29,649 bases of DNA from a virus: positions 1-29,649 of IMG/VR virus record IMGVR_UViG_3300031974_001145; one strand, 5' to 3'. Positions 6-895 of this stretch are shown one piece after another. The position numbers and the translations under genes were made by a program. How positions within the stretch are numbered: position 1 is the first letter of the stretch; each line of letters opens with the position of its first letter. Under the pieces are notes generated by a model, which saw only the letters and a list, made by a program, of their open reading frames with translations, made no database searches and had not been told where the DNA came from.

Positions 6-191
6 TTATAAACCTTGTTGTTGTGCTCTTTGATTTTTTTCTTTTATGTCATCAATCAACATTGTCAAGTAAATTTCTCTCTCCCATGGCATCATTGTTT
101 CTACTTCTTCTAATGAGTAACTGTAGTTGTTCATTAGTTGGAAGTTAACCTGATAGTAGTTCGTCAGGTTATCATGAGAGAGATTTATTAA
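6..191 (-). CDS. Probable -1 frameshift extension of gp26 (GT-like 'T' domain)
   Basis: A 61-codon reading frame in the -1 frame relative to gp26 begins where gp26 ends. If ribosomes slip back one base on the T-run just before the gp26 stop, they read TTA-ATA-AAT and continue to TAA at 8-6, giving a fusion of about 296 residues. The encoded segment has NYYQVNFQLM, then YSLEEVETMMPWEREIY, then a charged C terminus. These features recur, from memory, in small proteins next to gp26 in marine T4-like phages. The first in-frame ATG (134) would give only 42 residues and lose the NYYQVNF part, and no convincing ribosome-binding site precedes it. An ATG at 175 is in the wrong frame and stops after three codons. 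By analogy with lambda gpG/gpGT the fusion would be a tail-assembly chaperone. Independent translation from 134 remains possible. Confidence 0.6.
   Translation of the reverse strand, partial: LINLSHDNLTNYYQVNFQLMNNYSYSLEEVETMMPWEREIYLTMLIDDIKEKNQRAQQQGL
146..171 (-). other. Stem-loop downstream of the gp26 slippery run
   Basis: On the minus strand TAACCTGA pairs perfectly with TCAGGTTA (8 bp) around a 10-base loop. It lies about 19 bases downstream of the T-run that ends gp26. Programmed -1 frameshift sites often have a stimulatory RNA structure, but usually at a spacing of about 5-9 bases, so this one is farther than normal. It may be a stimulator, part of a larger fold, or incidental. Confidence 0.45.
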
Positions 192-197
192 AAAAAA
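188..197 (-). promoter_or_regulatory. Putative -1 ribosomal frameshift (slippery) site at the gp26 stop
   Basis: The minus-strand message reads GAT TTT TTT TAA at the end of gp26: a run of eight T whose T TTT TTT core fits the X XXY YYZ slippery pattern, with the zero-frame stop as the very next codon. After a one-base backward slip the Phe tRNAs still pair perfectly. The -1 frame is then open for 61 codons with conserved-looking sequence. This is inferred from sequence only. Confidence 0.6.
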
Positions 198-895
198 TCG
201 TCCATTCCTTGTAGTGTTCGTTTGTTCTCGTGCTTACATGATACGCATGTAAACTCTACGTCTTTTGAGATCGCAGGCATGTTCTGTACGAACTCAGTGA
301 CTCGCTCAAATTGATCAGAGGTCATTGAATCAATGAAATTGATAACGTCCTCTTTGCTCTCATCTTTAATTGAGAATCGTTCCTCTTCAGTCAGTACCGA
401 GTCTAGACAAACCATAATGAGTTCCATCAATGACTCTGTCATACTATCAGTCTCAAGGAGTTTCTCATTAGATAAGAAATCATCATAACTCGGATATCGC
501 ATCTTTAACGATACTTCATCGGTCAGTTTGATGATATCACTCTGTGTTTCTTTGGACATCTGAATGTCATCAAGTTCAATTGAGATGTCATTCGCCATGT
601 TGCACTCTTCGCACTTGATTGACAGATCAACTACTTCACCCACAGACTTGGCGCGAATTTGAGTGAACAAGTAATCAACATCAAACGTGGTGAGATTCGC
701 TTCAATCGGTTCTTCAATGCAGGCATGAATTGTGCGAGTGATCGCTCGGACCATATCGGTCTTGTCTTGAGTCTCGTACGCGATGAGCAGTGCCTTCTGC
801 TCTTTGACTAGAAACGGACGAAACGTAGTCTTTTTGCCCAACGAAGGTATCGTGATACGATAACTGGGAGTGCTGTTTAACTGGGGTAATGCCAT
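188..895 (-). CDS. 26: gp26-like baseplate hub assembly protein / tail assembly chaperone
   Basis: This 235-residue protein resembles the T4 baseplate protein family that includes gp26 and gp51 (T4 gp26 is about 208 residues). Visible features are an N-terminal stretch with ITIPSLGKKTTFRPFLVKEQ, a helical middle, and two CxxC pairs (C95/C98 and C217/C220) that could form one split zinc ribbon. The start has a good AGGA ribosome-binding site (about 904-901). It ends on a run of T immediately before its stop and is followed by an open -1 frame, which suggests it is the short form of a two-product gene. In T4, gp26 acts in assembly of the central hub. In this arrangement, between a tube-fold gene and the frameshift extension, a role as a G-type chaperone for the tube or tape measure is plausible. 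The family call is fairly secure; the chaperone role is inference. Confidence 0.8.
   Translation of the reverse strand: MALPQLNSTPSYRITIPSLGKKTTFRPFLVKEQKALLIAYETQDKTDMVRAITRTIHACIEEPIEANLTTFDVDYLFTQIRAKSVGEVVDLSIKCEECNMANDISIELDDIQMSKETQSDIIKLTDEVSLKMRYPSYDDFLSNEKLLETDSMTESLMELIMVCLDSVLTEEERFSIKDESKEDVINFIDSMTSDQFERVTEFVQNMPAISKDVEFTCVSCKHENKRTLQGMDDFF

Follow-up and report, generated by a model that had tools for sequence, protein, structure and literature searches.

At the low-coordinate end of the window (the whole stretch of viral DNA analyzed here, i.e., the 29,649 nucleotides of IMG/VR record IMGVR_UViG_3300031974_001145), the minus strand codes in succession for a tail tube-fold protein of the gp19/gp54 type (positions 913–1539; phrog_45, tail tube, E = 9e-28), a gp26-like protein of 235 residues (TAC-N; 188–895, with its TAA stop at 190–188) and an extension in the −1 frame, immediately after which the window ends with the ATG (5–3) of a gene in the presumed tape-measure position. 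This is the gene order noted in the preliminary description of the sequence. The gp26-like protein is recovered by both the PF12322 T4_baseplate profile (E = 1.9e-58) and phrog_150 (E = 4e-62). Elsewhere in the window, the gene for a gp4-like head closure protein (2183–2695) has a match to PF08722, the N-terminal domain of TnsA-like endonucleases (E = 3.5e-22).

The end of the gp26-like gene reads GAT TTT TTT TAA on the minus strand (199–188), with a run of eight T at 197–190, as first described. Within this run the slippery heptamer T_TTT_TTT (191–197) abuts the zero-frame stop and is in the exact phase for −1 tandem slippage. From the slip point the −1 frame is open for the 61 codons previously claimed, running from 191 to 9 (LINLSHDNLTNYYQVNFQLMNNYSYSLEEVETMMPWEREIYLTMLIDDIKEKNQRAQQQGL) up to a TAA at 8–6, and predicted read-through via this frame would yield a product of 296 residues as against the normal 235. 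The extension (TAC-C; 6–191, minus strand) is modeled as three helices in structure predictions and matches phrog_634, "baseplate hub assembly catalyst" (gp51), with E = 3.6e-23. Moreover, the first 232 positions of phrog_150 match gp26 and its last 48 match the extension; thus, the reference profile already joins both pieces.

The structural model of gp26 has a mean pLDDT of 88. Foldseek searches of the PDB with this model found no significant match, and the tail chaperones rose to the top only upon VIA re-ranking. The best solved structures for the N-terminal domain were then 3fgx (Z 8.2, 86 aligned residues, 4.1 Å), the HK97 tail assembly chaperone 2ob9 (Z 7.3, 80 aligned, 3.3 Å) and YqbN, 3klu (Z 6.8), matches that span only residues 1–95 and have Z-scores of a size (near 8) that can arise by chance. 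These are followed by 5ir0 (Z 5.1), with all remaining structures at 3.2 or below; 2ob9, the only one of the top structures with chaperone in its title, is thus well separated from the unrelated ones. Hence, residues 1–95 of gp26 are predicted to adopt the TAC-N fold.

A relationship of the gene downstream of the extension to the T4 tape measure was considered and set aside: among the relatives, this gene gives no match to the Pfam and PHROG tape measure profiles, except for a partial one in Cr30. In the record of the latter phage the tape measure is annotated next-but-one after gp51, with a small gene between them, and in C48C1 a gene coding for 492 residues begins 4 bases after the extension. 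The corresponding gene of cyanophage ACG-2014d (L083:4902-7955) contains a VanY peptidase domain (E = 7e-10); it may represent a tape measure that carries a domain of a cell-wall enzyme.

Conservation of the heptamer and of the −1 frame

Viral contigs and annotated phages together yielded 262 loci that contain a gp26 gene, of which four run off their contig; the remaining 258, in which the gene end is visible, were used. KVP40-like, Stenotrophomonas and Rhizobium phage gp26 proteins as queries of the viral contigs retrieved only one or two loci each. An in-frame and in-phase T_TTT_TTN heptamer is present near the gene end in 253 of the 258 relatives, as TTTTTTC (143), TTTTTTT (102), TTTTTTA (5) or TTTTTTG (3), with the zero-frame stop 0, 1, 2 or 8 codons past it. 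Removal of near-duplicates left 144 nonredundant genes. The codon preceding the TTT TTN of the heptamer is GAT, AGT, TCT, AAT, GCT, GGT, ACT or TTT, i.e., it always ends in T while the amino acid varies. Thus, the conservation of the T-run, which the preliminary description had put forward as a check, is seen at the level of the reading phase, which is kept even as the preceding residue changes (e.g., GAT, AAT, AGT, TCT, GCT). Phe-Phe elsewhere in the same genes is coded as T_TTT_TTY in just one of 106 instances. Given the codon usage of each gene, log10 P is about −30 for the first Phe always being TTT and about −20 for the preceding codon always ending in T, values that treat the relatives as independent and hence overstate the significance. 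Even GC-rich genes (GC3 up to 0.70) retain the heptamer, although GAC and TTC would be preferred in them. The pattern is accordingly confirmed at the sequence level as real and as more than chance.

The −1 frame itself shows the marks of a coding sequence. In the group to which the window belongs, the extension starts with [LIV]xxLSH..L..YY..NF, placing conserved gp51 residues directly after the slip, and a Tyr-rich motif is seen at residue 11 past the slip in most of the 144 nonredundant genes. Conservation of the residues ahead of the first ATG had been suspected from the window alone and is borne out; across the 18 codons compared within its family, differences by −1-frame codon position number 181/111/802, with changes piling up at third positions. 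Judged by these sequence comparisons, coding in the −1 frame sets in right at the slip.

The five exceptions to the heptamer are four Ackermannviridae-like phages and the IMG/VR record L183. The former (L092:3693, L095:3807, L096:3711, L099:3678) keep a gp51-like −1 extension, while their gp26 genes end in CTTTTC, ATTTTC, GTTTTC or GTTTTT; at the gp26 stop there is an ATG in two of them, and an ATT or ATC at the same place in the other two. L183 was considered as a case of a fusion and rejected, as it has one T deleted in the T-run relative to the near-identical L182; this missing T (L183:2250-2260), which removes the heptamer, is either a sequencing error or a real variant.

Start codons, the polymerase-slippage alternative and the two-gene phages

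Many public records annotate the extension as an ordinary separate gene 51, which would have its own start or be translated by termination-reinitiation at the gp26 stop. The first ATG of the −1 frame in the window is codon 20 (132–134, minus strand), which lies downstream of NYYQVNF and after the conserved NLSHDNLTNYYQVNF and is hence an unlikely start for a separate gene. No GTG or TTG starts were found in this frame before the ATG at 134–132, and none of the sequence upstream of the latter resembles, by eye, a Shine-Dalgarno motif at the normal distance. An ATG does occur within the first 11 codons of the extension in 42 of the 144 nonredundant relatives, yet not one of these 42 has a Shine-Dalgarno motif 4–14 bases upstream. 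By the preliminary description, relatives with a normal ATG and ribosome-binding site for the small gene ahead of this region would count against the shift. Close relatives show nothing of the kind; some distant lineages (KVP40-like, Cr30, Rhizobium and Stenotrophomonas phages) have an ATG that overlaps the gp26 stop, as TAATG or TGATG, but keep the heptamer too. In such lineages it is possible that a free gp51 also arises by re-initiation. Nevertheless, a separately translated gene 51 leaves the invariant, in-phase heptamer unexplained, and we consider it improbable as an account of the locus.

The annotations themselves bear this out: as coding begins at the slip without a proper start, gp51 is either called late in public records, as in C48C1 (105 bases), where the annotated start trims off conserved sequence, or is absent, as in ACG-2014d, where no gene is annotated at the extension. 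A gene that has been shortened or omitted in these records gets a corrected annotation: what goes by the name "gp51" in cyanophages and in many further phages of the T4-like kind is most likely the C-terminal domain of a predicted frameshift product rather than a gene of its own.

The fused product could alternatively be generated by slippage of the RNA polymerase, rather than the ribosome, on the eight consecutive T of the window. About half of the relatives (78/144) have TTTTTTC alone, which is short for polymerase slippage, and a single reading phase is kept throughout, which a slipping polymerase does not need; this makes a transcriptional origin very improbable.

The T4-type phages offer a natural control. 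T4 gp26 (208 residues) and gp51 (249 residues) are paralogues that both match PF12322, with gp51 being a gp26-like protein and the extension fused in frame and, accordingly, matching both profiles; their genes are divergently transcribed. The two-gene arrangement, judged in the other phages from annotation, position and length, also occurs in Serratia X20, Karamvirus, Dhakavirus, Lazarusvirus, Krischvirus (two phages), Tulanevirus and a Klebsiella phage. The heptamer is absent in all nine of the examined phages with a separate, longer gp51, T4 included, which agrees with the earlier statement that T4 is not known to use such a shift. Aeromonas phage 65.2 has the −1 extension and keeps AGT TTT TTC; its annotation, in the part that was inspected, lists no gp51. 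The contrast between the predicted frameshift lineages and the two-gene lineages that lost the heptamer constitutes a natural experiment in replacing a recoding signal. It also disposes of the notion that the T-run merely encodes a conserved Asp-Phe-Phe tail next to an incidentally open −1 frame: five of the nine T4-type gp26 proteins indeed keep Phe-Phe, but code it as TTC TTT or TTC TTC, and chance is excluded by the codon-level conservation together with the conserved gp51 domain that the −1 frame encodes, making this explanation hardly credible.

A predicted tail assembly chaperone pair and its antecedents

Taking together the conserved heptamer, the constrained −1 frame and the TAC fold match, we propose that the locus very probably codes for a G/GT-type tail assembly chaperone pair via predicted −1 ribosomal frameshifting, in line with the original suggestion that gp26 is the G-type chaperone and the small ORF its T extension. 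Most ribosomes would end gene 26 at the TAA at 190–188, giving the 235-residue TAC-N (G-type). A minority would slip back by one base on T_TTT_TTT, where both Phe tRNAs would pair anew, and bypass the stop to produce the 296-residue TAC-NC (GT-type) with its gp51-like helical C-domain. We infer that this slippage occurs and is ribosomal; by analogy to lambda gpG/gpGT, the TAC proteins would act as chaperones of the tape measure and bring tube subunits to it.

Candidate stimulators of the predicted shift lie on both sides of the slip site. In the window, a Shine-Dalgarno-like AAGGA (206–210, minus strand) is positioned 8 bases before the heptamer and may stimulate the predicted slippage. In 137 of the 144 nonredundant relatives an AGG shortly precedes the heptamer, where the Gly is a conserved residue; ahead of this Gly, GAG is used over GAA at 54:26, versus 927:2502 in the same genes, and the Gly codon itself is GGA/GGG over GGT/GGC at 91:51, versus 314:518 (P = 1e-13 and 7e-9, values that are indicative only, the sequences being related). 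Downstream, a 60-base stretch that starts 12 bases after the first base of the first Phe codon gives better folds than shuffled versions of it (mean z −1.29 ± 0.19), while control stretches range from −0.3 to +0.3. In one cyanophage group there is a 5-bp hairpin 10 bases downstream of the heptamer with two-sided changes at all five pairs; its covariation amounts to 24 cells versus 8.6 upon shuffling and 4–7 in slid controls, a lead from a stem that was picked after viewing the sequences. This short palindromic hairpin, e.g., GGTCC-ATAT-GGACC, noted among the cyanophage loci L102–L181, is a possible frameshift stimulator. A consensus downstream hairpin was also sought in the window's own family and none was found, though a hairpin does fold in the window taken by itself (z −2.2). 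We tentatively put forward, as a reading with somewhat less than an even chance, a previously undescribed bipartite stimulator composed of the upstream AGG, at about 8–10 bases in nearly all lineages, and the covarying hairpin in one cyanophage group, with the signal having been replaced in one way in the T4-type phages and in another in the Ackermannviridae-like ones.

Frameshifting was reportedly found to be conserved in several T4-like groups by Vladimirov, Gautam and Davidson in 2022. In the PRFect paper, this work is cited for T4-like phages that, rather than frameshift, have two TAC genes, a short one and a longer, fused one (PMC10885494); the paper on phage Adele refers to it for slippery polyT signals within the TAC-N genes of T4-like phages (PMC12846349). 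Systems of this kind had thus been reported for T4-like phages by 2022, and the locus in the window is a well-supported further member. A T4 review names both gp26 and gp51 as chaperones of hub assembly and states that gp51 does not occur in the particle (PMC3004832). The present findings link T4's hub assembly protein gp51, whose function was long unknown, to the mechanism of tail chaperones in general, a link already proposed in 2022. T4 and the window share the protein families (PF12322, phrog_634) but differ in their deployment: T4 has two genes, whereas both forms would come from one gene by the predicted −1 shift in the window.

The conserved tail chaperone frameshift, that of lambda gpG/gpGT, is said to have been described by Xu, Hendrix and Duda in 2004. 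The present locus resembles it in having a short and a predicted −1-extended form after the tail tube gene, in what would be the pre-tape-measure position, but differs in its slippery site (T_TTT_TTT as against GGGAAAG in lambda) and in that its TAC-N is longer than that of lambda, with an extra C-terminal part. For the E/E+E′ pair of P2, which lies before the tape measure gene T, the record annotates a −1 shift, at GGT TTT TTG, i.e., a T_TTT_TTG after GG. A common origin of the extension and P2 E′ was considered and set aside, the match to the present extension profile being non-significant (E = 0.47). Finally, the TAC locus of Vandenendeviridae and Andersonviridae, as presented for phage Adele, likewise combines a T-rich site, where a −1 shift is predicted, with an extension annotated as a separate gene; it has a GTTTTT motif instead of T_TTT_TTN, and in this it resembles the Ackermannviridae-like exceptions described above (PMC12846349).
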